DNA of 64,000 nt from Orbilia blumenaviensis. Taxonomy: Eukaryota; Ascomycota; Orbiliomycetes; Orbiliales; Orbiliaceae. The position numbers and the translations under genes were made by a program. Location of the stretch: assembly GCA_036872755.1 (NCBI GenBank), contig JAVHNS010000012.1, forward strand, positions 1,475,962 through 1,539,961. The letters run 5' to 3'. The notes under the pieces were generated by a model. It was given only the letters and a program-made list of their open reading frames with translations, made no database searches and had not been told where the DNA came from. Below, in pieces: positions 1-64,000 of the stretch (positions are counted from its first letter, which is position 1; each line of letters starts with the position of its first letter).

Positions 1-3000
1 GCAACTTCTTGGAGCATTTGATCTCCGGTAACCGTGTCGATAACTCGGATCGGGCGGTATCTGACGCCTTTCGCAGGTCCGACCTCGAGGCCCATCGGGT
101 CTCGTTCAGAGAACTCAATTGCTTTCTCCTGAACAAGGCCAAGCAGTTCTTGTATTATAGCCCACCTATCTCTACCCCCTTCCAAAGTTAATTGACTCCC
201 CATCGTATATAGTAACTGGTATTTGATATGAAGTATCTCGTCGCATTCATCCAGGATGTCTCGAGAATTTTTTGACAGCCACTCCTGGCATGCGACCAGC
301 GGCTCTGATATTTCCTGTTGTTCTTGTATTATCTTTTCAACTCCCATCAGTTTGAACGACAATATGTGCTCAGGAAGGGTTAGAATGATGGCTCCGGATT
401 TCATGCAATCTTCATAAAAATTCCTAATCGTCTCGATCCTCTCCTTTGAAAGATCCATATTTCGCCAAAATGGTAAGTAGTAGACCCGTCTGTCGCACAG
501 ACCACCGAGTCTCCGTACCAGAATCTCAAACATCTCATCAGATAGTGGCTTCGGCACAATGGATCTCACAAGCTTTTTTGTATCAGCAAGGGCAGCAGCT
601 ACCGCCGGTACGATTACCTTTCAACATCGGGGTTAGGCATGCATCCTGAATAGTTAGGGGAGCGTTGGTTGGCTTATTACTTACAGCAGACTTTCCTTCG
701 CCCATGTTTAGCTGCATTACCGCATTATTCGATTTGCTATCGTCCATCATAGAAAAGCCGATACTCGCTTGAACGGGTCGGATCAGCATTTCTGAGTCTA
801 GCTCCAACAAAAGCCAATCGATATATTCTTCCGAATTCCAGTTCTGCCGCCCTGCATTCCGTACCTCCCGCTCGAACTCTTGAACAAAACCTCTGCATGC
901 CAAGCCTACAAGGCGACTTGCTCTCTGCTCCCATGTTATAGCCTCGCCCAGAGCAATGATAGCTCTTACCCATTCACGAGGAAGCTCCCAGCGTTCCGCC
1001 AGCCGTAGTCTCCGGAGTAACTGCAACTTGGTGATGTCGGGCCAAAGCCCGCTCTTCTTTTGAAGCCATTGCACCTTTGTGTTGGGGGATAGGATACGGG
1101 ATATATCGGACATTAGTTTCTCGACGTTTGCAGCAGCCAGTCGCTGGTGTGTTTGCAACTCTACTAACGTAACTGGTATCTCTTTGAGACCTCGAGCCAG
1201 CCCAGAGTTCCTTAAAGCCTTTATGCTCTCCAGAAGGTCGTTGGCATACTGTTTCGTGAATTTTTGGTCTGAGTTTTCCAGATAGTTAGCCAGCGAAACA
1301 AGTCGCCGGATACTCAGGTTGTCGTCCATTTCTATCTCATCATGAATGAGAGAGTACGGTCTTGTAGTTTCTATCTCCAGACTCCCAGGAACCGATCTCT
1401 CTTTCAACAATTCTCTCAAAGTGGGGGTGTGCTCTCGTGGCTGTGACGACTGATCTGCGTGCTCTTGGAGGCAGGTCACAGCCGAATAACCAAATGGCCT
1501 CAGCACGGCTACATCGCCTTTTAAATGTTGCAGTCTTGCGGTTACCTCAGTTAGGTGGTTTGACAATTCCAAGTTCCGGAAACAAGTTTGAAATCTGCCC
1601 GTAATATTATCCATTGCCGATGATAGCTTGAGAAGAGGATAGTCGCCATAGGGCGGGTAGATAACGCTTTGGTTCGGCCACTGGTCGAGTATTTCCTGGG
1701 CAGCATGTTCGACTTGGTGCCGGAGGTCGTTCTCGTAGGCAGAATGCCGTCTCCTGCGCCACTCTGCTTCCGTTTCACATGATTGTCGTGACCAACTGTC
1801 GTATTGGGATTGCTCATATGACAGTGACGATGACTGAAGAAAATCTTTTATATCCGCTATGTCAGGTTTGGTCCCCATATTCGGCTCGAAAGATCGGTAT
1901 GGAGGAATTGGGAGGTCGCTAAAAACGGTATTGGTCGCTACCACTAGGAGGGACTTCAAGAATTGTCGGTTGGCCGGATTGTCGTACACGAAGAAACTGA
2001 ACACGAAGAGCAATCCGAATCGATTTCCCTTTGTTGCCTTCCGACAGAGCTCGTAAAGAGTGCACCATAAATCAGACGGCGCTCTCCCAGCCCACCCCGA
2101 AGAATACTCGAGAGCGAAATCTGATAGGCACCCGGTCAACATGGGTTTCTCCATAAGCGAATCGAAGTTTGCATCCAGGTCTTGTTTCTCCTGCCATTTA
2201 AACGACGCCCTTGCGATATCCTGGGTAGAAGCCTCCCTGTCACCCACTGTGTTTCTTAGACTCTGTGAAATCGCCATTGAGTTTCGGTTCGAGGCACGTG
2301 GGTCCCCCGGGGAGAAATTGCTACTGATGTTTCGTCCTCGCTCTAATAAGTCGTTTGATCCCATTTCCACAACATCATGCCCCTGTGATCTCTCGATTAG
2401 AAACTGACGACGGGTCCAATCGTCGAATATATCCCCGACGGCGGCATAGAACTCGTCGTGTTGTACCCACGTTGGTATGCATCCATTCCAACCGACGGTT
2501 TGTATCTTACGTGAACGGCTAGAATAGAAGTGCCGTGACGGTGTCAGGCTAGCGATCTGGTTTAGAATGCAGGCCTCATCATTGTGAAGCTCTCGGAAAC
2601 AGAACGAAGCCGCGTTCTTTAGCAGATCCAGGGACTCGCCAACTCCTGTGCGGCCGGTCAGAGGGTCCTCAATAATCCCGCTCGTCAAAGCGTGAAGGTA
2701 GATCCGGGTGTATCGTGCTCTAGGCGTCCCATCATCTCGAACTTGATTCAGGAACCTATCGATATGGTAGATTGTGTAATTCCGCTCGTCGTCGGTATGA
2801 TGTATTTCAATAACACAGTGATTGCCAGTCTCCGACAGTTTTGACTTGATGGAGCCAAACGGAACTAGGGCACATTCTTTATTCAAATGGTCGTTCCTGC
2901 TCCTAAGCTTTAGGAAGTTCTTCAGCCCGATGAAAGTCCCGAGATCCTGACAGCAATCGACAACCCAGCCTTTGAGGGTCTCACACTCGAAAAGGTTCGA

Positions 3001-6000
3001 TTTGTTCAGAAAGAACTTGAGCTTGTACCTGGGTAGGTCCACAAAGATCCTTGTGTCCTGGTTAGTCGTTGAGACGAGGTAGTCATGAGCTTCGATCGGC
3101 TGTAAAGTCCTATGTGCCATAGCATGAATGTTACCACCTATATCAAGGAGCTTATCGAAGCCTCTTTCCATAGCCCAAAAGCCATCATTCCTACTGAGAA
3201 CCCAGTCACCTGCTGACGGGCTTTCTATCCACCAGCGATCTGACTGGTAAAATATCACCTCTTCTCGGTTGAGATTTAACCACTGGCTCCCACCTCGGAC
3301 CAGTGGACTTGGAATCTCGCCCAGAAACTTTTCTGAGGGAATGAATTCATAATCCTCTCCATTTTGCTTCCGAATGACCATGTTACCGCCTTCCAGGTGA
3401 AAATGTAAGATTGCCCCGTAAAATTTGTTCTTCGTCTGATAAGACATATTCGGCATTTTAGATGGAAAGACATCAAATATTCGCTATAACGTGTTAGAAA
3501 TGTTGTTCGTGGTTGGCTACCAACCGAAACGATCTCAACTTACATTTCCGAATAATTTAACGTAGCTCCCGTGTGTGAAGTAGCCCTCGGGAAGCCTCCC
3601 GTTGGGTTTCCCGTTAACAAGCAATTTCCCCTGTAAGATGTTCAAGTGGACCACCATGGTCTCAGAGCCGTCACATCCATCTGAACTCAATTTCCACCAG
3701 CGATCAGCTGGTTGACTGAGCTGACGCCACGTCCCAAATAGTTTCTGAGCCGGAAAAACAGCCTTAAGAACGCTGAACAAAATTCTGGGGTCTTGACGGA
3801 TACATTCGTGGACGTAGCCTTCCGCAGTTATTGCAAACCGCCGGTTAGCTTCCAACAAAAAGCTGAGATCCTGTGGTAGTTTTGAAAAAATTCCAAAGCA
3901 GTTATCGTGAACAGTAATCTGACAAACAAGGAATTGAACAACATCTTCAGGGAGGCTAAACATGTGAGACAGAAGATCCTGGTCGACGTCGAAAGTGCTA
4001 CATTGTATTCCCGAGATCTTGAGCAGCCAATACCAGAGAGTTTTGACCAAATCGGGCTCAAACGCGGCTTCGAGTTTTGACTGGATGCTTTTGATCCAAG
4101 GGTCGCAAACCTTTCGCGCTTCCTTCAGGAAACCGACAACATCCAACTTCACGCTACAATGGCCTGCGGTCACTAAGCGACGCGCGAGCAAAATAAAGAG
4201 TTTGAGTCTGTTCGCCTGCTCCCAGTTGTCTTTGAGTACGCTCAACTCTTGACGTAGAGATTTCAGAAGTTCCCGTGAAAGCTCCTCCTCTGAGAGTGTG
4301 AGATGAGAGTCTCTCCTCCAGTCGGAACCGTCAGTGGCCACCCCAGCATGGCAAGCTGCGTGCAAAACGAGCGTAAATACGGATTCGTCTTTGAAAGCTA
4401 GATCATCTTTTTGGAGCTCAGTAAGAATGTTGTGCCACTGAATACGGTCACCTGATCGAAGAGAAGCGAACGCTTCGTACTCGTGAAGTGTCAAAGACGC
4501 TGGGCACTTGTGTTGCTCAGCAATCACCGTGTTGTGAGTGTGGCTAGTGTGATTTACCGCGTATGACAACGCCTCGTAAGGAGTCTTCGACAGGTCTGAT
4601 TCGCATAATGGGACAAGACTATGAGTTTTGTGGCGAGATTCAATCCATTCCTCCTTCTCAGCATCTAACGGTAGATAACGGCCAGCATGTTCCACCAGAA
4701 CCCTGCTTTCGTCGGCAGGAATTCTGATTTCGGAACAAATTGGATTTGCCTTAGATGCCCATGTAACTCGACCACAGGAGTGGGATTTGACGGAAGCGAG
4801 AATGTCCCAGTTATTGAAGCCGTAAAAATTGGCTGCAAGGGGCGACTCATTGTCAACGCTTTTGCAGACATCCAGCATAATGTAATATGTTACATCCCTC
4901 CAAGTGACAAAGTGCTCTGGTGGTTGTAGCTCAAAAACTACCACCTTGATTTCATTTTCGTCTATCGGAAGTGGCCACTCGTTGACTTTAATCCTCATAG
5001 ATGCTGCTTGGTTCTCCAGGTTACATTTGCGGCAAGGGCTCCAATGGTAAGAATCACCCTTCTGGTTTATCCTATAGTCGCAGGACAGCCCTTGAGCATC
5101 CCGCCGGAGTTGTTCATACTGCTCATTTAGTCGCTCCCGCTCTCTCTTCTTCTCTTCTCTAGCGGCCTCAGCTCTCCGGATAATTTCCGACCTCAAGGTT
5201 TGCAGATCAATCGATTGATTATAGTAGTGGACTGCAAAGTTGGTCGCGGATATCTGTCTACCAAAAACTGATGATCGATTCGATTCCTTCGCGGTTGAAT
5301 GACGGTATTGAAGATAGTCTTCAATCCTAAGAAGTCGTTCCATATCTTCTTTTTGAATAAATAGAACTGGTTCAAGCAACTCGCTTGGGAGCTCCGGTGA
5401 ATAGTGAAGTAGCAAAGGCTCCTTTCCACCAATAATTTTGTCAAGCCACACCCACATTTCCATTATTGTAAGAATCATCCTTGAAGTATCAAGAATGTTG
5501 TGATTAACATACGCCTGTGATGCTTTCATGTGATACTGCCTGATATTCGTGGATAGAAAACTGATGACGTCCGCTTGATCGTCCATAGACACAGAAGAAC
5601 ACCAGTTTTCTAGATTTTCCTTTATCCAGTTCTCGAAATCAATCAAACTGATTGCTGCCTCAGTCTCTGTCCCCTTTGGTAGTTTCGGAGGCGAGTCTAA
5701 AGCGATATGGCGTTGTTTCTCTCGGGGGTCGTTGACCACCGGTATGATGACACTAGGACTTCGGTACGCCTTTATTCGCTCCTCCACCCAAGCAGAAGTA
5801 TTTCGCAAGTGAAGACGGGTATTTTCTGTGATATTCGCAGCAGTGTTTAAATCAAATTCCCATTCGACCATCCGTTTCGAACCTGAAATTTCAACCTGCC
5901 AACGGCTTGAAAGTACGTCGAATGCTTTTCTTGCTGTGCTCGAAGTCCTCTCGAGCATAGTTAGAGGGAGTTTTGTCTCTCCAATTTTGGAAGCCCGGCA

Positions 6001-6919
6001 GGCGAGTTTGCGGCTGGTGCAAGATAGAGAATAACTATCAATTTCAAGCCGGCTAGCTTGGTCGAGGATGACACGAACTGTCTCCAACAAGAAGCATTTG
6101 TACTCGTCGTAACCTAAGGCGATTTGTAGAGCTACTCGGACGACCAACCATAACCCGCTTCGCCTCCACGGGTCCAGAGCAGATTTACAATTAGCCTCAT
6201 CCCGCAAGCTCTTCCATATGCTCTGTGCCGCAAACTCCTTCCCGATCCCACGCATCATTCCGGTAAAAAGCTCAATGATGTATCGCGGATCAGCGACATC
6301 TCTAGTCTCCGATAAGTCGTTCCCACCCTCTCGAGACTTGGAAAGAGTTTCGGTTTGCTGGACATTCATATGGTGTAGAAAACTACCAAGTTCTCTCAAG
6401 AAGGCGGGGTCCTTAGCTACTTCCCACGGTATTGCGGTCGCAGGGCCTGGGAATTTGCATTTTAGGCGCCCCTTACAACCCAAAATAGCCTCCGGAACGG
6501 GAGAAGCTTCGAAAACTTCTACTTGAAGAGAGTCTTCATGTCTTCGGAAAATAATTCCTGCATTTTGCTTGAAAACATGTAGCGCAAATATATCTACACC
6601 TCCTTGTCAATATCTATTTAGTTAATCTTCTAGGGTTTTAGGAGATCTCCATACCCCCTTCTTCTAAATGTAATATCGTATCTCTCAACCGTTGCGGGAA
6701 ATCTGCAGCAGGCTCATGGATTCTAGCTGTCAACTCCAAGATCTTCTTCGCTTTGATTGAGGCGGGTGAGTTCGAGCTGTAGGAAATGTACTCCCCAGCC
6801 ACCCCAGCTAGAAACTCTAGCAGCTCGAAGTTTTTTGACCTCAGATCATTTTCTTCTTGTTGCGGAACTCTTGGTGGTAGGATGACATGATTAATTATGA
6901 AACGAAGCGTGTCTTTGTT
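1..6919 (-). CDS. Giant DUF6606/DUF3638/DUF3645-family protein, 3' end outside the window
   Basis: Seen: four coding blocks join in frame: 6919(or earlier)-6655, 6602-3544, 3483-685 and 617-1. The introns between them are 6654-6603 (GTATGG...ACAAG), 3543-3484 (GTAAGT, branch-like TCTAAC, TATAG) and 684-618 (GTAAGT, CTAAC, AAAG). About 2,246 codons are visible. Landmarks in order: an N-terminal NHVILPPRVPQ; HVFKQNAGIIFRR and FPGPATAIP; a CRKC...NEWPLP segment (about 5050-4970); QLNMGEGKSA at about 720-685, continued after the intron by VIVPAVAAALAD; LPEHILSFKLMG; and LDECDEIL, a P-loop and DExD-like pair. Known: fungal members are about 3,000 residues; databases often label them ubiquitinyl hydrolase, but the biochemical role is unsettled. 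Inference: nucleotide-binding, probably intact, since no stop or frameshift interrupts the exons. The true start is unresolved. An in-frame TAA at 6922-6920 means a further upstream exon is needed; an ATG near 7052 opens a 38-codon candidate. Confidence 0.9.
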
Positions 6920-51000: not shown

Positions 51001-52103
51001 GATGCATGCGCTTCACTTCCAGCCTCAACCTACTCTTCCCACCAATCGTATTGCCTAGCCACGATCTAACAGATCACTATCGGCCAAAATACAGAATTGA
51101 CAACATTCTTAATGTCGGATATAGGTGCGAATTTGGCTGAGACGCGGTCGGACATAAAAACGCAAGTTTCATACCGATCTGTTCCGGCCTCTGTGTATAC
51201 AGGTACACATCCGGCTGGCTGTGATCGGAATATCGATATACCCGTGAAAAAGGCATTAGGAATCCGAAAGTGCCATTTCTGAATATAATACGCCAATGAC
51301 AACCATATTTTGCTACCGGAATTAGCATTGAATGTACCAGATGTACAGATGTAGGTCTTTGACTATCGTGGTAGGTCTTTGACTGTCGTGGTAACAACAT
51401 TGCCTCTTCTAACCATGGTCCCGTGAAAACGGTCACTCAATAAGCACCATTAAATCAAGGTTTGTCAAACTGAGGCATTCATTCCTACGCACACAGAATC
51501 CTATAACACCCAAATGTTGAGGGTACGCGTATAGGCGCAAGTCGTCGGGTCCCTCGGCGGGATGAGCACGTGCCTTTTATCACCTGCGACCTAGGCTTAT
51601 TCTTAGGCCTCGCCCCATGACATATACTTCGTATACAAGAAATCAGTGGTGAACGGTCGTTCACCCAACATAGAATATATACGAAACACATAGACATAAC
51701 TTTCATAAGTGACAATTCTATTGCACAGGAACGCAAAATATGAACATGATGGATAAAAGTTGCGAAGATTGAAGATACGAAGTATTGTCCAAAAACCGGT
51801 ACAGCAGAATAAAGGTTATATACTGCTAGGAAGGTATGATTGGCGAGAGCGCTAACAATAAACGGATAGATCCGCTGCTTGGTTCTGGTAGAGCGATACC
51901 GTGATGCGAATAACTGACGACAGAAATAAGCTTGTATTGTCTAGAGCCTGCCTATTAAGTTGAAATATCACTCTTTTGAAACATTCATTGATATGTTAAT
52001 ATAGTCCCAGAGTTTGATTAAGAGTAGAAAGAGTAACTTGCGGCCAGGCACAGCGTATTATTGATGAAGATGCACAGAACAACTTCATCGGATAGTATCG
52101 AAT
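48000..52103. other. Gene-free moderate-GC sequence left of the TIR element
   Basis: Open frames up to about 119 codons exist, but they overlap in several frames and show no motif, intron or codon bias, so I treat them as chance. It includes a 20-bp tandem duplication (GTAGGTCTTTGACTRTCGTG, about 51,352-51,391) and the second copy of the 37-bp repeat. Confidence 0.5.
49643..49679 (+). repeat. 37-bp dispersed direct repeat, copy 2
   Basis: Differs from the copy at 44857 by three substitutions in the middle (GACC versus AAAA). It does not fold into a convincing tRNA and has no obvious element ends beside it. Confidence 0.8.
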
Positions 52104-52154
52104 AGTCTCGTAGTATAAGACGTTTCGTTAGCAAGGTGTTACGGCGAAGCGTCT
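52104..52154 (+). repeat. Left terminal inverted repeat
   Basis: Starts AGTCTCGTAGTATAAGACGT and ends GCGAAGCGTCT. It pairs with 59651-59701 in reverse complement. The five differences are at repeat positions 15, 20, 27, 38 and 47, all A/G or C/T; four of the five have the A/T state in this copy. Confidence 0.93.
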
Positions 52155-52442
52155 CGGCCAAAATATCTTTATTTGTATTAGAGCTTTTACCAGATGAATT
52201 TTATTGCTCGGCTTAGTAAATTCTATAACACTCTCGACATAATTGGCCCAGCACTCCGCCGTATTGGCTCTTTCTCCCTCATAAATCAAGCTCAGACCAG
52301 CAGCGGCTTTTGCATCTATCCACACCACTGGTCTCGTACGACTACACACCACCACGCGTTGGTTCGTCTACCTCGGAGATTAGGTAGCTACTAGATACTA
52401 AGTAGCAATTCCATCTCTTGTCCTTCCTCTTTAACAATCACC

Positions 52443-53898
52443 ATGGTCAAAAAAATAACCGCGGGGCCGCGAGGCTCGAGGTTCCAGAGCCGGAGTCAGT
52501 CCGCAAGGTCTCAAAATGACAGTCGTCTGGAAATCTTGAAGTCGAACAGATAAAAAAAAAAAAACAGGTCAAACTAGTCTCACTTGGTTGGATCCACCCG
52601 AAATTTAAGAGTGAATTCCAAGCTTGCCTAGTAAGTTATACATATTCTGATATATATAAACCTCGAAGTTAACGAATCAAATAGGGACAATAAAATGGTC
52701 TCACGAAGGGTCTCAGTTGCGTTCGATTCTTCCCTCGCTTAGGGAACCTCAAGGAGCGAAGAATTGATGGGTACAATGAGACACAGAACCGTCGTGCTCT
52801 CTCGAAGTACCTTTGTACCGGGGTCGACACCTCAATCCTCGGTATGAACACTTGTCCTGATTGGATCAATACCGAAAGGGGTGTTATCTATCGTGCCTTG
52901 GGTAAGCACACTCTTCTTCTCAACTTTTGGCTAGAAGACTCTGTCGGTCAAAAATTCCTCGCAAAAATGGAAGATGAAATCGAGGGCGGTTTTAACCTCA
53001 ACCCTCCATTCATTATGCCAGGACCTCTCCGGGACTGGGTTAAGCAAACTGGCCTTATTGGAGATCTCTATAGCGAAATCCTTGAAGTTGTCAAGGACGA
53101 TTTCTTCTCAACAGATGAAGGTATCAAGTGGATGAACGAGCTTGTTGACGGTACTTGTATTGTCTTACGCGAACTCGCCACTGCAACCTAATTGTTGATA
53201 AGAATGGTATCAGCAAACGAGACGGTGCAATCCCAGCTGTTATTGTTGCCGGCTGGTAAGTTTAGCCTTTTCGTAGTTGCATTGTTAATCATATTAATCA
53301 AATTTACAGTATCAAAGCCCCACCTATGAACGTCTCTGCTGAAAAGACAGTCAACTTGACCAAATTGGACGATTACTACAAAGAATTCTACTAAGTAGAC
53401 ATGGCCTAACTTCTTCGTCTCAAAGCTAAAGTTGTCGAGGAAATTGAGGAACTCAAGCCTCAAATGGGGGATACCGTTCGATACATGGCCTCTCGTAATC
53501 GCCTGGCTAACGAATTGGCACAACAATATGACATGCTTCGTACCGTTTCCAGTAAGGTCCGAACTTTCCGTATGAAATTTGATACGGCGGGACAAAATGG
53601 GATCACATATATGACGACAGGGAAAAAATAAGGTCCAACTCTTCACGATGTTGTCACCGAAGCTTTCGATTATCTCAAATCCGGCGTCGACGACGATATG
53701 GCGCAGCTGAGTGTCCAAAGTTTCGAAGGTACCGCTTCTACTGCTGACACACAGGGAATTGAGACTCAAGGTGGTGATGTCGAGTCTTTGGACACTCTCC
53801 TGGCTGACCTACGGGATACGGATGGTGCTAACGACCACGCTCTTAATGGTGGCATGAGCTTGGAAGAGACAGTCCCACTCGACACTGACTCTGATTAA
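52443..53898 (+). pseudogene. Unrecognised multi-exon gene in the TIR element, inactivated by CAA-to-TAA-like stops
   Basis: The ATG at 52443 lies in a good context (CACCATGG). Exons are joined by two clear introns: 52631-52684 (GTAAGT...AATAG) and 53256-53309 (GTAAGT...TACAG). The rebuilt frame has about 430 codons and contains RFFPRLGNLKERR, TSILGMNTCPDWI, GFNLNPPFIMPGPLRDWVKQ, then KVVEEIEELKPQMGDT and an acidic C-terminus ending DTDSD. Third positions are rich in C, as in real genes. Breaks: TAA at 52691, 53392, 53407 and 53629, all explicable as CAA to TAA; a frame slip beside the A-run near 52,551; and a one-base slip near 53,188. No domain is recognised. As first gene of the element it could be an accessory or DNA-binding protein, but that is only a guess. 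Confidence 0.7.
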
Positions 53899-54184
53899 AC
53901 GAACGCGGACAACCGCTTTTGTCTTTTTCTCATTACCTTCTCGATCCTGTATCTAACTCTGCAGCTTAATACAGACCATCGGCCGCGTTCGGGTCATATT
54001 CATTACGTTCGTTCGTAAGATTTCTTCGTAGGCGTGAATGTGCTCATGTGGGACTAATATCATATCCTTCTGGACTATTGAAGACCCATCTGGTCAGTTC
54101 TTAATCATCCAAACGTAACACCCTTCACCATCTACACTACAACTACATCCATCCGTACTCTTCCCCCAAGTACGAACCAAAATC

Positions 54185-56583
54185 ATGTCTAGCAGGCTCT
54201 CGTTCGAATCAGGGTCTAAATACGGAGCATTACGACTGCGGATCCGACGAGCAGTTCGTGCAAGGTGGGAGTTTGAGGCACATCCTTTCCAGATCAGATG
54301 GTCTGCAGCCATTCTAAGTGGTTGGGATGTCCTCGTGGTCGTCGGAACAGGTGGAGGCAAAACTGTCGGTTTCGAGGTGCCGTCTATCTGCTTTTCTGAT
54401 AAAAGGATCACGCTTGTTATTTCACCTCTATAGAACTTGATTCAGCAACAAGTTGATGATCTCAAGGATTGGAGCTTGTCTGCATTTGGGATATATCATG
54501 AATTCAATGATATCTTCTGGCACATATGACGAAATTGTACAAGGGAAATACCACTATATTTTCCTTACCCCGGAACAGCTTAGAGCCGAAAATCGCAATT
54601 TTTGGAGGCTTATGAAATGCGAGGAGTTCAAAGCTAAAGTCGGATTGATGGTTTTGATGATTTCCGACCTGCATATGAAAATGTCAATGTTCTACGGACT
54701 CATGTTCCCGAAATACGATTTGCAGCTTGCGCCGCAGCGTTAGCGCCGCAGAAGCTGCCAAGGTTGAGACACCTTCTAGAAATACGACCCAAGAAACTGT
54801 TAACTGTCGAGGAAACTTCGGACAGAGAGAACCTATTTTATGCATCAGCGCCGATTCGGAAAGGGGTGGTAAGTGTCGTCGCAAAGCGTTTATGTGTTGA
54901 GGTTACGTGGCCCAAAGCTAATTCTGAGGTTTAACTTCAAGGAGGATTTCACTTGGCTGATTCCCGCGGACATCTAAAATCCGGAACATATAATCAGAAT
55001 CCCTCAAACGATCATATACTATTTCGGCATCGCGGAAGCAATGCAAGTTGCAACTTATCTTCAATCTCTACTACCGAGAACGCCGGAATTCCGAAAGGCG
55101 CCAGAAGTGAAGGAACCTTTCGACGAGCATAGGCGTCCTGCCGAGCGGGTAGTCGGGATATACAACAGCACAGCCGTTGGGCCTGAGATGAGGGCGACCC
55201 AAGACGAGAATTTTGGGTCCGGCGAATGTCAAATTATGATCGTCCCCGAGGCTTGGGGCGTTGGGTTGCATAAGCTCTGCTAGAGACTCATAATTTTTAG
55301 GGCTGGGAAACTAGAGGACCCTGACCAGATTATTCAATGCTGTGGCAGATGTGCAAGAGATCCAGAAATACGGGGGCTTTGCATTGTATACCTGGAAACC
55401 TCTTTGACCCCTGATACTGATATGCAAAGGTCGACAAGAGAGAAAAGAGCAGAACTGATGCGTAAGAAGAAACAATTACTGAATACTGCACCGGACAAAG
55501 ATAAAGAAAATGAAAGTCCTGCTCCCAGCGACAACGACGCCAATAGCGAGTTATCTGTCAACGAATCCGAAACTAGACCAACGTTGAACAGCCTGGGAAA
55601 TCCAAAACAGCGGAAGCGAACAACCAACACCAAGGACCAAAGAATTGCTGATCTCCCTAAGGCCTGTTGGAGTGCATACTAGGGACGGCAAAACATAATG
55701 GTCAGGGGATTCCATGTATTCGCTTCGCACTATTGGCCGCTATGCAAGACCTCCGACGGCATACCTTTGCTCTTACGCATGGAACGAAGCAATATTGTTG
55801 CTGTCGCTATTCGCCCGACGCTGTCCACAAATACTTCTAAGGTGTCCTAAAAGGTATTTTCTTCTATTTACAACTTAAGACTAATGCACTTAACGATCAG
55901 AAGAAACGCCCTAGAAATCAGTGGAAACGCACCAAATCCGAAAGTTTGATTTCGAGAATAACGAATGATCTTAAGGCGTGGAAAAAACAGAAGATGGCAG
56001 AAATCAACCGCATATCTATTATCGAACAGTTCTTTCTTCTAGATTCATCTATAAGAGCACTTGCGGAACATGCAATTGGGATCGAGCAATCATTTACGCC
56101 GGACATGCTCAATTCGATTACGAAATTTAACATGCAACCCGGGCTCCTCACAGCACACGGACCGTCACTACTTGAATAGTTATTGAGAAGTCGCGACTCC
56201 AATATGACACAACTAAACCTGGTTTTCGACTCTAAAGGATACGATCATGCTGCTCAGGAAACGGTAGAAATTACCCAGCTTCGAGAATTGCCAAATACCC
56301 GGTATCACGAAAAAGAACCACTCCTACGTCGAAACTAGGGATATCTCGTCCTGCGGTCCGCCGCTCCGTTTCACTCGATCCCACCACTGGTAAAACAATC
56401 GCTCGCTCGAGACCAGCAACACCAACCGGACAAACACAGCCGCCGGCAACAAGACCACTAGACAACTCCGAACCAAACCCGCCTCCGAGCAGTCCTACAA
56501 ATCCAAGGAAGAGGGGCCCGGACAAAAAACCACGGGTAAGGAGGACTAGGGCACAGATTCTAGGAGATTCACAGAAGCAATGA
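54185..56583 (+). pseudogene. RecQ-like DNA helicase relic
   Basis: Helicase motifs appear in order across shifted frames. FEAHPFQIRWSAAILSGWDV and VGTGGGKT form Q-motif-like and Walker A (54,260-54,365). ISPL, a TAG at 54431, then NLIQQQVDDLK is motif Ia. FLTPEQLRAENR is at about 54,560. DFRPAYENVNVLRTHVPEIR is at about 54,660-54,715. FGIAEAMQVATYLQSLLP is at about 55,022-55,080. AWGVG (motif V) is at about 55,247, and QCCGRCARD (motif VI) at about 55,337. A cysteine-rich CCCRYSP (55,795-55,820) recalls the RecQ zinc module. An intron follows (about 55,854-55,900, GTATTT...ATCAG), then a Ser/Pro/Arg-rich tail with a basic RKRGPDKKPRVRR ending in TGA. The DEAH box expected before DFRPAY is missing, implying a deletion. 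Several stops and frameshifts make it non-functional. Known role of the family: 3'-5' unwinding. Confidence 0.85.
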
Positions 56584-56679
56584 GGATATATTCGTTAGAA
56601 TTTAATACATCAATCGCATAATTCGTCTATTTCATCGCCCCAGGCTTCAGCATTGCCAAATAAATTCTCCCTTTCCGTC

Positions 56680-59188
56680 TTAGGGAGTGAATTTCTCAGA
56701 ACCCTGTCCCATATCCAGAACCCTGTCCCATATCTTCCTGTCCGCCAGTTTCTCTAATCCTTTGTCGAAAATATTTGGCACTTTTCTGTTGTTCTTGCCC
56801 CGTCCAGAAATATGCCTATAAACACCATGCAGTTCCTTGGCAAAGCACATGACATCAGCATGGGCTGGGCCCGAAATATGGCCTTTACGTTTTAGTGAGC
56901 CCCCAGTGGCTTCGGTCATCCCGTCCTTGATTCGAGCTAGTGTCACCACACGACGGCTCACGACATAACGTCTATGTTTTTCGGTGCTGTCGGTGAGTGC
57001 AACACCGTATATATCTTTCATGGGCGCGCGATTTACTCCATCAACTCATCGATCGCCAAAAACTTCCGGGCTTTCCACTTGGATTGATTAACCAGCTACT
57101 CTTCAGAACGGACAGAAGTTCCTGCGAATATTCTATCGTAAACGCTGCTTTGAAGCTCAAAAACTCGTACATGTAGTTAGTCATTCCTGACCCCGCAAAA
57201 AATGGAATAAATAGTACTAGTTCTACTAATTTCATTAAGCGCCCAGTATCATCTAATCGCACGGACCGACAGAGATCACGAATTTTTAACCCGCGTAGAA
57301 TTAACAACAGTCCTCCTTCCTGGGTATAATCTCGTCGTGAATTGGACATAGATTGCAGGCATCGGGTATTCGCAATGAAGAAGACTTTCTCGGTAACTTG
57401 ATCGACCAGTTTCAGAATAGTCTGAAGTCTAGCCGGCCCTTCAGGGAAATCTATATCCGCGGGGTCTTTCTCTCTTGCTTCTGATGCAAGGAGGGCAAGC
57501 ACATGGGCGTCCAGGGCCATTTCAATAAATCGCTCTTGGTTATGAAGGTCCTTTCGAGGGCTAGCATGGCCTAGCTTGGCAGTAGCGAACGACAGTGACA
57601 CCGGGTCAGTAGGATCGTCGTCATCCTCTCCTTCGGGGTCCTCAACGGTCGCTTTTATGCCATTAACGCTAAGATACTTTTCGGTACAGTTTAGTCTCCA
57701 GTGGAACGGTGTAGGCCAAGCCAAGTAGTGGTCCAGCCCTCTTCCAGTGTAACCCACTCGGCCTGAATTCCGTTCGTCTGTGTACGTAGCAAGCCGAGCT
57801 GGTCCGCGGAAAACGGTATAGTCTTCCTAAACAGAGAGCCGGGAGGAAGGCTCATCTCCTTTTCCTGTGCATATTCCAGGAACGCCCGATTGACCTTCAT
57901 CTCGCCCTGGTTAAAAGGAAGGAGACCAAAGTTGCGAATAATTGGGGGGTCTGATGGGCATTGAAATGTGAACTGCGGCGCTATCTTGAACTTAAGCCGT
58001 TCTTCTTTGGTCAATTTGATGCCTAGTGTATATTCCATGATAGACAGAATATAGTATCGTATGGCTTGGCGGGCGTATTCCCAGGCCGCTTCAGAAGGAA
58101 CCATGTCTTCAACTGATAAACTAGCTCGACCGTTCCGATTCAGCCATTCTCCGGGTAGAAATGATCTATCGGAGACACTTTCTGACAGCCCACGCAGATC
58201 GAAAACAAAGCCAGTACATCTGTGCTCTAAGTATGATTTCAGAACGCTTGATTAGTCCCGTGATCTTTTGGCTACCGGAAAATCGACATTATCACAGCTG
58301 ACACCGCAAGGAATCGGGTTAACCATTAATTTGAGGTTCTTTTCCTCAGTCTGCGCAAGTTCACCTAGCAGATTAATGCGCTGTGACGAGGATACGACAA
58401 TTTCTATCAAATGCATTACTTCCATGGCCGGTTTCTGTGTCCCGCACGCACCCAGATATACGGATATTGAAGTTTGTAATGCATTCAGATGGCTATTCGA
58501 ACTGTATGCTAGGATTGCAAATGCAACTACGGCCGCCAAATACATTTCGTCCGAGTCCACCGTTTCGACCATGCTATCGAGAGCATCACTGGGCTTTCTG
58601 CTTGTACGGAAACTCAGAGAATGCAAGATGGCCCAAAGAAATGGGGTCTATCGAGGTCACACTTAGGTCATGAATAATAAAATCATGGTACGCACGTTAA
58701 AATAGCTTACCTTTTTCTTCATACCGGATGCGCAATCTTCCTACAAAACTAAAGACAGCCAGGGGCTTAAGGGAAGCAGTTGGCTGTTCGCGCCTCAATG
58801 GTGTACCCTCCTCGTATGCAAAAGATGTGGTTTCTTCTTGGACGTAATTCGTGCACCAATTCCGTAGCAGTCCAAATAGAGAATTATTATCGTCTGTCCT
58901 TTCATGAATTCTCGAGTCGTCGAGTGCATAAATTAGAAACCTCCGAAGTACACTGGCTGAAGAAATTAGACTGGGCTGTCGTAAAGGGTATGTTCTCAGC
59001 GGAATGGGTCGCGGGGGTAGCTAAGTCCTCTAAAGATGCACCAATGGAGGCGTAACCGCATTGATCGCAGAGATAGTAGCCATGACCTTGTTAGCCCGCC
59101 ACTGTTCGGCCGCACGCTGCCGGCCTGTAAGGGGCTTGACTCCCTGTGACCGCCGTCTCCCTGTGGTATTGCGATCACTATTGTTCAT
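56680..59188 (-). pseudogene. DUF6589-family gene relic, candidate transposase
   Basis: Read leftwards from an ATG at 59188 (MNNSDRNTTGRRRSQGVKPL). A charged N-terminal region runs through two frame changes to an intron near 58,700-58,640 (GTAAGC...). Then TPFLWAILHSLS; the hallmark IPCGVSCDNVDF with downstream arginines (about 58,310-58,260), where a TAG follows RSRD; FTFQCPSDPPIIRNFGLLPF (about 57,975-57,905); LKIRDLCRSVRLDDTGRLMK (about 57,290-57,230); FFAGSGMTNYMYEFL; and LINPSGKPGSF, ending with KDIYG and a basic C-terminal block near 56,700. Motif order and spacing match DUF6589 proteins of fungi, whose function is unproven. Breaks: at least one stop and three frameshifts. It is convergent with the helicase, 97 bases apart. 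Confidence 0.85.
56697..56734. repeat. Perfect 19-bp tandem duplication
   Basis: CAGAACCCTGTCCCATATC occurs twice back to back in the last codons of the DUF6589 relic. Nineteen is not a multiple of three, so the duplication shifts the reading frame at the C-terminus. Confidence 0.95.
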
Positions 59189-59650
59189 TTTGAATTACCG
59201 ACTATTTTTAATTCGAGATAGTAGAGGTAGTTCGGTGTAGAGAGAGGACTAATATGAGAGTATGAGAGCTCGGGTGTGCTATGAGATAGCTGCGGGACTA
59301 ACTGCGGAACCTTTTTGGTGAGGCTCAGCGAGGTGTTGTAGACGCAACCCATGTGGGCAATAAAAGTTCTAAGATCTTTTGGCCGAGACGTGCACACTTT
59401 TTCGCCCCCATCTGCCCTCGGTAACGAGCTTATATTTACGACACCACTCATTAGCTAGCTAAATACCCCACATCCTTCATGTATACTAATCTTAATTTAG
59501 TCACCTTCTTTAATAGACAATTAGTCACTCTTTGATTGAAATAACCTCCCATATTGAAGTCATGTCATATCCAACCAATATACAATATATTAGTCGGGTG
59601 AACCTTAAAAGTTTGTGTAGTTTGGTGCCATGAACAACTTTTGGTTCACA
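59189..59650. other. Non-coding right arm of the TIR element
   Basis: Between the DUF6589 start and the right TIR; presumably the promoter of that gene. An 88-codon minus-strand frame (59451-59185) overlaps the start region but has no recognisable feature. Confidence 0.5.
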
Positions 59651-59701
59651 AGACACTTCGCCGCAACACCTTGCCAACGAAGCGTCCTATACTACGAGAC
59701 T
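59651..59701 (-). repeat. Right terminal inverted repeat
   Basis: Begins AGACACTTCGCCGCAACACC and ends ACTACGAGACT. It is the reverse complement of the left TIR, with five transitions. Homology stops abruptly at both repeat borders, as expected for a true TIR. Confidence 0.93.
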
Positions 59702-59702
59702 A

Positions 59703-60900
59703 AGAATTGAAGGTATCATAACACGCGTAAAGCCCTCGATAGTACCGGCGTGGATTGCGCGCAAATAACCGAATTCCGAGGCAGTATCTAGAAACTCTGA
59801 TCGTGTAAAACAATCCGGATGACGCGTTAATGAGTCCATAGCCGCCTAGAACTTAGGCCACAGTGATACTAATAGTATTTCAAGATTGTAGGCTGGAAAC
59901 ACAATTGAATTTGGGAATTCTGAAAGGCTCTACTGGATTCGAAATAGCAACGGCTGCTTAATTATATTCTGCTATGTATAAATATTAGCCTTTACTTTAA
60001 TACACTATATACTCATAGCTTATGGCTATGGGTATACAGTAATCTTATTTTTCGATTGGGGAACTAACTCCGATAAAAGGACACTTAGCACAATCGATCG
60101 ATTCAGGTGTTAGCATATATATATACTCTAAATAGTCGATTGACTTAAACCCAAGCAATATCCTTATCAGGTGTATAGCGAAAGCCAGTTCAGATATAAT
60201 AAGATGGACAACCCTTTGGCTTAAACAGATGATGAGCCCGCGCTTTCTGGCCGCGTTATGGTCATAGGAGAACAACATTGCATGCGTATGTCTAAGATCA
60301 TCACTATAATAAAAAATACTTCTTTAAAATTTAAATGGTTTATAATTAAGATAATAAAAAATTAATGAATATATATACATAAAGTATGATAATTAATATG
60401 GTAGGGAAAAATAGTTGTGATAAATAGGACTAAGTTAGTATTGAACTTTTAATAAAATATAGAAAAGTTGAAAAAATCTAGCAGGATATAAAACAGTAGG
60501 ACCGGGAAGCATAGTACTTTGATGGAAGTAAGTCAAAGAAAAATAAATTTTAAAAATATATAATGTTTTCAATATGTTCTAGTTTAATTAACTACTGAAA
60601 ATGGGAATAACGAATTAAATAGTATGATTTTTGAGCTATATGATGGATTATAATGTTGTAAAATTGCTAAACCAATAATTTGTTCAGCCAGTTAGCTTAA
60701 GATCCAAAAAATAAAATATGCACTCAAAGTCAATGTGAAGTACAATAAGAAAAAGCGAGGGAATGCGGGATGGCAAATAATGGAAGCAAATAACTTAAGA
60801 AAACAAAATTTAAAATATAACTATTATAATGTAAAGATTTTAGAATCAAAAAATAAAATAATATAAAAATGACACAATTCCGATGTATATATTTTAATTT
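59703..60900. other. Subtelomeric sequence passing from moderate-GC to AT-rich
   Basis: No gene. A short stretch at about 60,189-60,226 (GTTCAGATATA ... CCCTTTGGCTTAA) resembles 8768-8806 in the same orientation. Composition turns AT-rich after about 60,290. Confidence 0.5.
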
Positions 60901-63852
60901 TATTAAAAGCTCGGCTTGATAATAAAGGAATGTAATGATAATAAGAATAAATATTTAATATTTTATATAATAGTATAAATTTACGGTAAGAATTAAATTG
61001 TAATGTGGAATATAAAAGAAAGTAAATATTAATTAAAAAAAATAAAATAGGTAATATGAAAGTAAATTTAATTAGAGAAGATGGGAGTTAATTAGAAAAG
61101 AAAAATAGGGGGCCCGGGGGAAATTAAAGTTAAAATAGATGATAATTGTTATAAGTTATTATGAGGAGTAATTAATAAGAAGTATATAGAAGTTAATAAA
61201 AAATAAGATATAGTTTAGAAAAGTAATTATGAATTAAAAGAAGTGTAATTGAAAGAAAAAGAAAAAAGGAAAGAGATAATGAATAGAATAAGTAAAAGAA
61301 TAATAAAATAGATTAATTAAAAGGGAAAAGAGTGAAATTTAATTAAAAAAAGAAATAAAAATGAATTAAAGTTTTATTGTTAAAAGAAAGAAGGTAAAAA
61401 TAGATTTAAAAAAAAAGTAAATTAAAATTAAGGAAATATGAAAATTGATTAAAAAGAGTGGGTTAATAAAGAAAGAGGGAATGAAAATTGATTAATAGCG
61501 AAAATATTAGTTTTGATGAAATGAAAAGAGTTTGAGGTTAATTAAAAAAGTAAAAATGAAATTTGATTAAGAAGAGATATTTGGAAGTTGATTAAAAATA
61601 AAATGTGGAAATGGATTAAGAAAAAGAAGTTAAAATTGAATTTTAAAAAAAAGTAAATTAATTTAAAAGAATGTGAACTTGAATTGATTGAAAAAGATAA
61701 TGAAGTTGATTGATAAAAGAAATAACGTTTGATTAAAAGAAAAATGTTAGGGTTTGGATAAAAAAGATTAATTATAAAAAAAATGAAAATAAAAATGAAA
61801 ATGGATGAATAAATTAAAAAAGATTAAATAAGAAGTAATAAAAAAAGGGGGAAAGGTTAATAAAAAAAAAGATTTAATTAAAAAACGAAGGTTGATAAAA
61901 GAGAAAGGGAAAGGAAGTTAATTAAAGAAGAAGAAGAAGTGAGAGTTGATTATGAAAGAGGAAATGAAAATTGATTGAAAAAGTGGAAAAAGTTAAATAA
62001 AAAAGAAAAAAGTGAAAATTAATAAAAAGAAAGAAAGAAAATGGAAATTAAAGTTGATAAAAAGGGAAAAGAAAAATTGATTGAAAAGAAAAAAAAGTGA
62101 GAATTGATTGATTAAAAAGAAGGAGATGTGGAAGTTGGTTAAAAAAAAGTGGATGTTAATAAAGGGAAAAAAAGGGAAATTAATTTAAGGATATAAAAAT
62201 TGATTAAAAAAAGAAGAAAAAAAGTTAATTAAGAAAGGAAAAAGTGAAAATTAATTATATAAAAAAGAAAGAAATATTAATTAAGAAAATAAAAATATGG
62301 TTAAAAGAATTAGTGAAGAGAAAGAAAAAGTGTAAGTTGATTTAAGAAAAAAAAAGAGAAAGTTGAATAAAAAGAGAAGAAGTGAGGGTTAATTGAAAAA
62401 GAGAAAATGGAGGGTAATTAAAAGAAGAAAGGTGGAAGTTGTTTAAAGAAATGGAAATGAATTGAAAAAAAATGAGATTTAATTAAAAGAAAGAGAATAG
62501 ATAAATATGAGAAAAAATGAAAGTTTATTAAAAAAAGAGAAATAGAGGTTAATTAAAAAAAAAAAAAAGTAAGATTTGATTAAAAAAAGTGGATGTTTAT
62601 TAAAAAAGAGAGTTGATAAAAAAAGAAAGGGAATGGAAGTTGGTTAAAAGAAAATGTGAAAGTTTATTTGAAAGGAAAGTAAAAATGGAAATTGATTAAA
62701 AAAGAAGAGGTGAGAGTTGATTAAAAAAAAAGTAAAAGTTGAGAGGAAAAATGAAAGTTGAGAGGAAAAAAAAAGAAAAAAAGAGTTGATTAAAATGAAA
62801 AGAGTTGGTTGATTAAAAAAGAAAAAATAAGAGTTGATGGAAAAGTAGAATTGAATTAAAAAAGAAATGAGATTTGATTTTAAAAAAAGAGAGTTGATAA
62901 AAAAGGAAAGAAATAGAAGTTGATTAAAAAAAAAAGAGGTGGAAGTTGATTAAAAGAAAATGTAGAAATTGATTTGGAAAAAGAAAGGAGAAGTTGATTA
63001 AGAATGAGAGTTGATTAAAAAAGCGGAAGTGAATTGAAAAAGAAAAAGTGAAAAAGAGAAAGAGAGAGAAAAGTTGATTAAAAAGAAAAAAAATGGAAGT
63101 TGATTAAAAAGAAAATAAAAATTAATTAAAAAAAAAAAGTTGATTAAAAGAAAAAGTAAAAATGGATTAAAAGTGAAAAAATTAGAGTAATAAAAAAAGA
63201 GATTGATAGAAAGGGAAAAAATTAGTAAAAATGTGGAAGTTGATTAAAAAGTGGAAGTTGATAAATAAAAAAAAAGTTAATAAAAAAAGGAGTAAAAGTT
63301 GATTAAAAGAAAAAATGTGGAAATTGATTAGAGGAAAGAGATTTTAATTAGAATAAGAAGAATTAGTTGATTAAAAGAAAAGAGTGAAAATTGATTTAAA
63401 AAAAAGAGTGGAAGTTGGTGGAGAAAAAAAGAGAATTAATAAAAAGGAAAGGGAATGGAAGTTGATGGGAAAAAGAGTGGAGATTGATTAAAAGAAAAAG
63501 AATGAAAGTTAAATAAAGAGAAGTAGAAGTTGATTAAAAGAAAAAGTGGAAGTTGGTTAAAAAAAAAGAAAAAAAAGAAGTGAAAGTTGATTAAAAGGGT
63601 GAGAGTTAATTAAAAGAGAAGAAGTGAAAGTTGATTAAAAGGGTGAGAGTTGATTAAAAGAGAAGAAGTGAAAGTTGATTAAAAGGGTGAGAGTTGATTA
63701 AAAGAAAAGAAGTGAATGTTAATTAAGAAAAAAGTAGTAAAGATTGATTAAAAAAAAAAAGAGAAAGGAAAAAAAGTGGAAGTTGATTAAGAGAAAAAAA
63801 AAAGGAAAAAGAAAAGAAATGGAAGTTGATTAAAAGGAAAAAAAAGTAGGAG
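60901..63852. repeat. Purine-rich, almost C-free subtelomeric degenerate repeat
   Basis: From about 61,140 the plus strand has only a handful of C residues in 2.7 kb and consists mainly of A and G runs punctuated by GTTGATTAAAA or GTTAATTAAAA about every 20-35 bases, often followed by GAAAAAGTGGAA. Order increases toward the telomere: near 63,590-63,700 a ~30-base pair of units (AGTTGATTAAAAGGGTGAG and AAGAGAAGAAGTGAA) repeats three times with few changes. No coding potential. Confidence 0.9.
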
Positions 63853-63901
63853 TTAGTTAGGGTTTAGGGTTAGGGTTAGGGTTAGGGTTAGGGTTTAGGG
63901 T

Positions 63902-63967
<66 letters not shown>

Positions 63968-64000
63968 GGTTAGGGTTAGGGTTAGGGTTAGGTTAGGGTT
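63853..64000 (+). repeat. Telomere, (TTAGGG)n with interspersed TTTAGGG
   Basis: From TTAGTTAGGG onward the sequence is an uninterrupted run of TTAGGG units with at least five TTTAGGG heptamers in the proximal two thirds and one five-base TTAGG unit near the end. The G-rich strand runs 5' to 3' toward the right edge, so the window reaches the true chromosome end (or its assembled tip). Confidence 0.99.

Follow-up and report, generated by a model that had tools for sequence, protein, structure and literature searches.

A dead DNA transposon with relics of DUF6589 and RecQ-like helicase genes near a telomere of Orbilia blumenaviensis, and dispersed solo repeat ends flanked by 9-bp duplications

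A dead DNA transposon bounded by terminal inverted repeats (TIRs) occupies positions 52103-59702 of the window, the 64,000-nucleotide stretch of DNA analysed here. The outer end of its repeats is dispersed alone throughout the genome, in many cases between two copies of a 9-bp duplication, and this latter observation is both new and strong. The window is the terminal 64 kb of a 1,539,961-bp contig of Orbilia blumenaviensis TWF730, a fungus of nematode-trapping habit, and the contig ends in TTAGGG repeats, with 4,298 bp between the right edge of the element and the contig end. With moderate confidence, we read the data jointly as the remains of an autonomous cut-and-paste transposon, now dead, with 67-bp TIRs, 9-bp target duplications, a DUF6589 transposase, an accessory helicase and imprecise excision that left scars. 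The features of the element and its borders are as follows.

52094..52102, no strand: presumed 9-bp target duplication, left copy AGTATCGAA, 7/9 against the right copy
52103..52169, plus strand: left TIR, 67 bp, starting TAGTCTCGTAGTATA, from the inverted-repeat alignment
52694..53898, plus strand: gene 1 relic, an orphan, annotated as TWF730_002655 (P0026)
54185..56173, plus strand: RecQ-like helicase relic, collinear with O. oligospora AOL_s00081g266 (P0002)
56716..59185, minus strand: DUF6589 gene relic, presumed transposase, collinear with O. oligospora AOL_s00081g267 (P0001)
59371..59390, minus strand: right TIR, inner part, from the inverted-repeat pair and the TIR alignment
59391..59650, no strand: solo LTR, 260 bp, within the right TIR, with TG...CA ends and AGACG/AGACA borders
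59651..59702, minus strand: right TIR, outer part, from the inverted-repeat alignment
59703..59711, no strand: presumed 9-bp target duplication, right copy AGAATTGAA, 7/9 against the left copy

The inverted repeats at 52103-52154 and 59651-59702 are 52 nt long, 90% complementary and separated by 7,496 nt. A second inverted pair at 52150-52169 and 59371-59390 (20 nt, 95%) represents the inner portion of these repeats, and when the 260-bp insert at 59391-59650 was omitted, the TIRs aligned over 67 nt with 62 of 67 identities. The preliminary description of this DNA had recognised TIRs around three gene relics, which was confirmed, and had given their length as 51 bp, which is corrected here to 67 bp; the greater length had escaped notice because the right TIR is interrupted by the insert. 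Parts of the insert were 69 to 82% identical to places on other contigs at six loci picked for matching it (L016-L021, with three such places in L017), and the insert was therefore read as a solo LTR. Matches of 59406-59654 elsewhere in the genome were considered as extra copies of the element and rejected, as they belong to this solo LTR in the right TIR.

The TA at each outer edge had initially been taken as the target duplication. This was rejected, since TA constitutes the first two bases of the TIR and is present in the solo ends, which start with TAG, and the duplication at the solo ends is 9 bp long. The element's own flanking 9-mers (AGTATCGAA and AGAATTGAA) agree at 7 of 9 positions, for which the chance at a fixed place is 0.0019. 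The interior holds three decayed genes, namely, the orphan gene 1, the RecQ-like helicase gene and the DUF6589 gene. Neither a second DNA match to the interior (52170-59390) nor a further full or coding copy was found in this genome, the element being single and dead, and no empty or filled alleles were seen in the one genome analysed. A further locus sharing both the ends and the gene content, for which the preliminary description had asked, was likewise not found here. Distal to the element, positions 60300-64000 of the window are very A+T-rich and subtelomeric in character, with loose A/G-rich repeat units leading into the TTAGGG repeats, and the G+C content of 59703-63800 is 0.245. Near the opposite end of the window, at 583-6606 on the minus strand, two neighbouring long open frames, read over 965 and 1022 codons, match DUF3638 and DUF6606.

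The DUF6589 gene is the largest of the element, and the sole DUF6589 match in this genome is the one between these TIRs. The relic matched the DUF6589 profile (PF20231) with 89 bits (E = 3.5e-25) and its O. oligospora relative AOL_s00081g267 matched with 163.2 bits, the curated cut-off being 27. The relic is collinear with residues 2 to 803 of the 842-aa AOL_s00081g267 in four blocks, which fall in two frames and of which two contain stops, and the stitched query exhibited 49% identity to this protein over 98% of the query. A Pfam search of AOL_s00081g267 at E values up to 10, with filters that drop most matches above about 0.1, returned DUF6589 alone. A PDB sequence search gave no significant match for DUF6589, and its predicted structure was unusable (pLDDT of 36.1), so that an RNase H-like core of the DDD/E kind is at most putative. 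No relatives of AOL_s00081g267 were confirmed in genome_contigs and viral_contigs, the best PHROGs match for this protein or the gene 1 protein was no better than E = 0.2, NCBIfam gave nothing for either, and no mention of DUF6589 was found in the library of literature searched.

Residues D281 and D284 (in a DNVD motif) and D445 of AOL_s00081g267 are among many acidic residues that it has in common with the relic and, on sequence grounds, may be regarded as candidate catalytic residues at most. A C/DxxH motif follows the second catalytic D in the group comprising hAT, P, MuDR, Kolobok and Dada (PMC9587614, in part). The one C/DxxH match in AOL_s00081g267 is DVLH at position 238, which is N-terminal to D281, and the relic reads EVMH. 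Linkage, size and the want of any stronger candidate make the DUF6589 protein the most likely transposase of the element.

The helicase relic matched AOL_s00081g266 at 36% over 85%, with four collinear blocks at 41 to 53% and stops in each. The best NCBIfam model for AOL_s00081g266, which was searched in place of the relic itself, was TIGR00614 at 110.3 bits, below the cut-off of 219.8, and its best PDB relatives were RecQ chains (E = 1e-19). A second helicase match in the genome, an open frame of 1,494 aa on contig C2, was taken as a host RecQ. The O. oligospora relatives of the helicase and of the DUF6589 protein bear consecutive locus tags (AOL_s00081g266 and AOL_s00081g267), suggesting that this pair lies side by side in a second species as well. 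Gene 1 matched only its own annotated protein, TWF730_002655, the domain search gave no Pfam family above cut-off for it, and no other genomic matches to gene 1 or DUF6589 were found. The RecQ-like helicase most likely acted as an accessory in processing or repairing excision sites.

It is rather unlikely, in our estimation, that the transposase was another protein, encoded by gene 1 or by a different element sharing the ends, and that DUF6589 and the helicase were passengers. Such a role for gene 1 would agree with its being as uncharacterised as DUF6589, which has neither an assigned function nor a usable fold, and a different element would agree with base 16 of the solo ends, which is mostly C, as against A and G in the window repeats; this difference led us to conclude that the source of the solo ends was a somewhat different copy. 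DUF6589, however, is conserved together with the helicase in O. oligospora in addition to being the largest gene, whereas gene 1 matches itself alone.

The abundance of the outer TIR end was determined genome-wide. Its first 12 bases were present in 165 exact copies compared with 7 for a reversed-pattern control, its first 14 bases in 95 exact copies compared with 0 for the control, and its first 15 bases in 52 exact copies, of which two belong to the window element. Allowing one mismatch in the first 15 bases gave 189 places compared with 5 for the control. Among the matches listed were 100 of these 189 places and 100 of the 165 12-base places. The solo ends begin exactly at TAG, while the inner stop varies.

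In the complete set of exact 15-base ends outside the window (n = 50), the 9-bp duplication was perfect in 18, agreed at 8 or more of the 9 positions in 24 and at 6 or fewer in 16. A larger set of 91 solo-end rows, which is not a random sample, contained 24 with a perfect duplication where 0.03 were expected (at most 1 in 1,000 permutations), 38 rows (37 loci) with at least 8/9 where 0.45 were expected, 18 with 7/9 where 3.77 were expected, and 35 with 6/9 or less; in the last batch of loci, at least 8/9 was observed in 7 of 20. The number of perfect matches dropped from 13 to 2 (n = 38) and from 20 to 6 (n = 70) when the length was raised from 9 to 10, and this sharp fall indicates that the duplication length is fixed at 9 bp. 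The 91 rows include 30 loci of a 33-base pattern, 30 exact 15-base loci taken in contig order, 12 other exact loci and 20 of the listed one-mismatch places, mostly picked because their mismatch fell at the final base, the remainder being further ends in loci already read. Places that bore two locus numbers entered the count a single time, and rows from both strands were included for L072 and L094.

The preliminary description had held that TIR-like sequences occurring singly throughout the genome would speak against a transposon. They do occur in this way, yet 24 of the 91 single ends have a perfect 9-bp duplication and therefore look like traces of such elements, so that the observation lends support instead. 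The location of the window element, 4.3 kb from a telomeric end, the plentiful solo ends and the presence of subtelomeric RecQ helicases in fungi (PMC4522978, in part) might together suggest that no transposon is involved, two chance or independent solo ends having come to lie around ordinary subtelomeric genes, among them a telomere-linked RecQ helicase. We consider this highly improbable, since the two ends match in inverted orientation over 67 bp, compared with 13 to 38 bases for the duplicated solo ends (about 46 in one, L015, read by eye), the flanking 9-mers are identical at 7 of 9 positions, and the helicase-DUF6589 pair recurs, as judged by locus tag, in O. oligospora.

The possibility that each solo end is one half of a short paired element (MITE) was also considered and rejected, no inward-facing pair being accepted among L001-L093. 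Besides the window element, L072 and L089, the inward-facing pairs in these loci were L043 (708 bp), L050 (1,162 bp) and L079 (122 bp). One member of the pair had its own 9-bp duplication in L043 (9/9) and in L050 (8/9), and L079 lacked a clear duplication at its outer edges. At about 1483-1536 of L029 (also L013), two solo ends read by eye as nested, one of 36 bp having inserted at another of 15 bp; both have separate 9-bp duplications, that of the older (15-bp) end being CCGTGGGCT. The longest solo end seen, of about 46 bases, is in L015 (G000:C12:1249201, minus strand), with a duplication that by eye is 8/9 (gcctttaac/gcctctaac). In L037 and L039, at about 1501-1544, inverted ends face outside-in about 9 to 11 bases apart with related short flanks, an arrangement that simple scars do not explain.

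The inner breakpoints of the solo ends bear on how they arose. In the 38 rows with at least 8/9, the end stopped after base 14 in 13 and after base 35 or 36 in 10, with a range of 13 to 38, and on going from 14 to 15 bases in the genome-wide count, 43 of the 95 places were lost. We infer that the solo ends are scars rather than insertions of short pieces, that DUF6589 was most likely the cutter, and that the strands were cut in the following geometry. Insertion would occur with a 9-bp stagger. On excision, a cut at the border between TAG and the target on one strand would be paired with a cut about 14 nt farther in on the other, and the donor would thereby retain a short 3' tail of the repeat end. 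Joining of this tail to the opposite side would then leave a solo end between the two copies of the 9-bp duplication, and a RecQ-like helicase borne by the element would suit a repair role at such sites.

One-ended places predominate in this genome, and both ends, in inverted order, were found at five places; among P-element scars, those holding both ends are common, and this difference counts against the proposed mechanism. Two of the five, L084 and L089 (the latter 30 bp), have a perfect duplication, and a third, L097, has one of 8/9. L094 reaches 9/9 only with two extra G permitted after the palindrome, and L072, of 26 bp, has no clear duplication. Both L072 and L094 are near-perfect 26-bp palindromes, a length which fits that expected of two 14-nt tails overlapping via the terminal AT. 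L063 terminates in a foldback (CTTCG TTG CGAAG), which fits what self-priming of a 3' tail would give.

The 35-36-base class, with a sharp inner end, recurs, for example, in L043, L044 and L058 at 1501; a 14-nt stagger does not predict this class. The window TIRs can fold into a hairpin, and the 35-36 breakpoint lies in or beside its loop. In hairpin folding, the right window TIR had a z score of -3.09 and the left one of -1.53, and the 36-nt solo end alone gave no signal (z score of 0.33).

The recurrence of this class, the preponderance of one-ended places and the existence of a single known full element would also be compatible with the solo ends being direct insertions of short end fragments of the same transposon, produced by aborted or one-ended transposition, instead of scars. 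This appears unlikely to us, as the inner stops range over 13 to 38 bases, mobilisation of a piece of only 14 bases is hard to envisage, both ends are present at five places, one foldback is as from a 3' tail, and the asymmetry of target sequence relative to the retained end that one-ended attack leads one to expect was not significant (P = 0.28, n = 30). Under the preferred reading as excision scars, the dispersed 14- to 36-base sequences would record past transposon activity and would probably be missed by repeat masking.

It is a tentative but serious possibility that DUF6589 proteins are transposases of an undescribed superfamily, with 9-bp duplications, TAG...CTA ends, a RecQ-like helicase of its own and excision that, through a stagger of about 14 nt, produces lasting scars of the ends. 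If so, the genome would be a fossil record of far more than 100 excisions by a family of which one dead coding copy is left. The analysis provides a testable function for DUF6589, a fungal family without a function in the library searched, and the natural junctions form a set from which one can predict how an unstudied transposase cuts.

The preliminary description had matched its TIR transposon with DUF6589 and a RecQ-like helicase to no superfamily, and this stands within the literature searched, where we recognised no described superfamily for this gene set; that literature lay outside Repbase and most subscription papers, and a name may already exist. Mutator, P, KolobokH and KDZ each fail at least one of the features tested. 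P elements are cut at the border on the 3' end and, on the opposite strand, 17 bp into a 31-bp repeat; their duplications are 8 bp, and the Drosophila homologue of the Bloom helicase is among the repair factors (PMC7776569, in part). The resemblance of the present element to P elements and THAP9 would lie in the proposed long excision stagger and the helicase; the differences are the 8-bp duplication as against 9 bp here and the lack of a match of AOL_s00081g267 to a P-element transposase family in Pfam. Mutator-like elements resemble it in their long inverted repeats and in the 9-bp duplication described for Mu (PMC2774946, in part), and differ in that the MULE transposase family was not found for AOL_s00081g267. 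The KDZ elements (Kyakuja, Dileera and Zisupton) are likewise fungal DNA transposons with passenger genes, but their duplications are 7 or 8 bp (PMC12730594, in part) rather than 9 bp, and the KDZ family was not found for AOL_s00081g267. KolobokH, as described in PMC9587614, resembles the present element in being a DNA transposon of fungi with a RecQ helicase among its coding sequences; Kolobok elements have 4-bp TTAA duplications and 5'-RR...YY-3' ends according to the same text, in contrast to the varied 9-bp duplications and TAG...CTA ends observed here, and the helicase of the present element is a separate gene on the strand opposite to DUF6589. Finally, the subtelomeric RecQ repeats of fungi also place a RecQ-like helicase near the telomere (PMC4522978, in part), whereas in O. 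blumenaviensis inverted repeats enclose the helicase along with two other gene relics.
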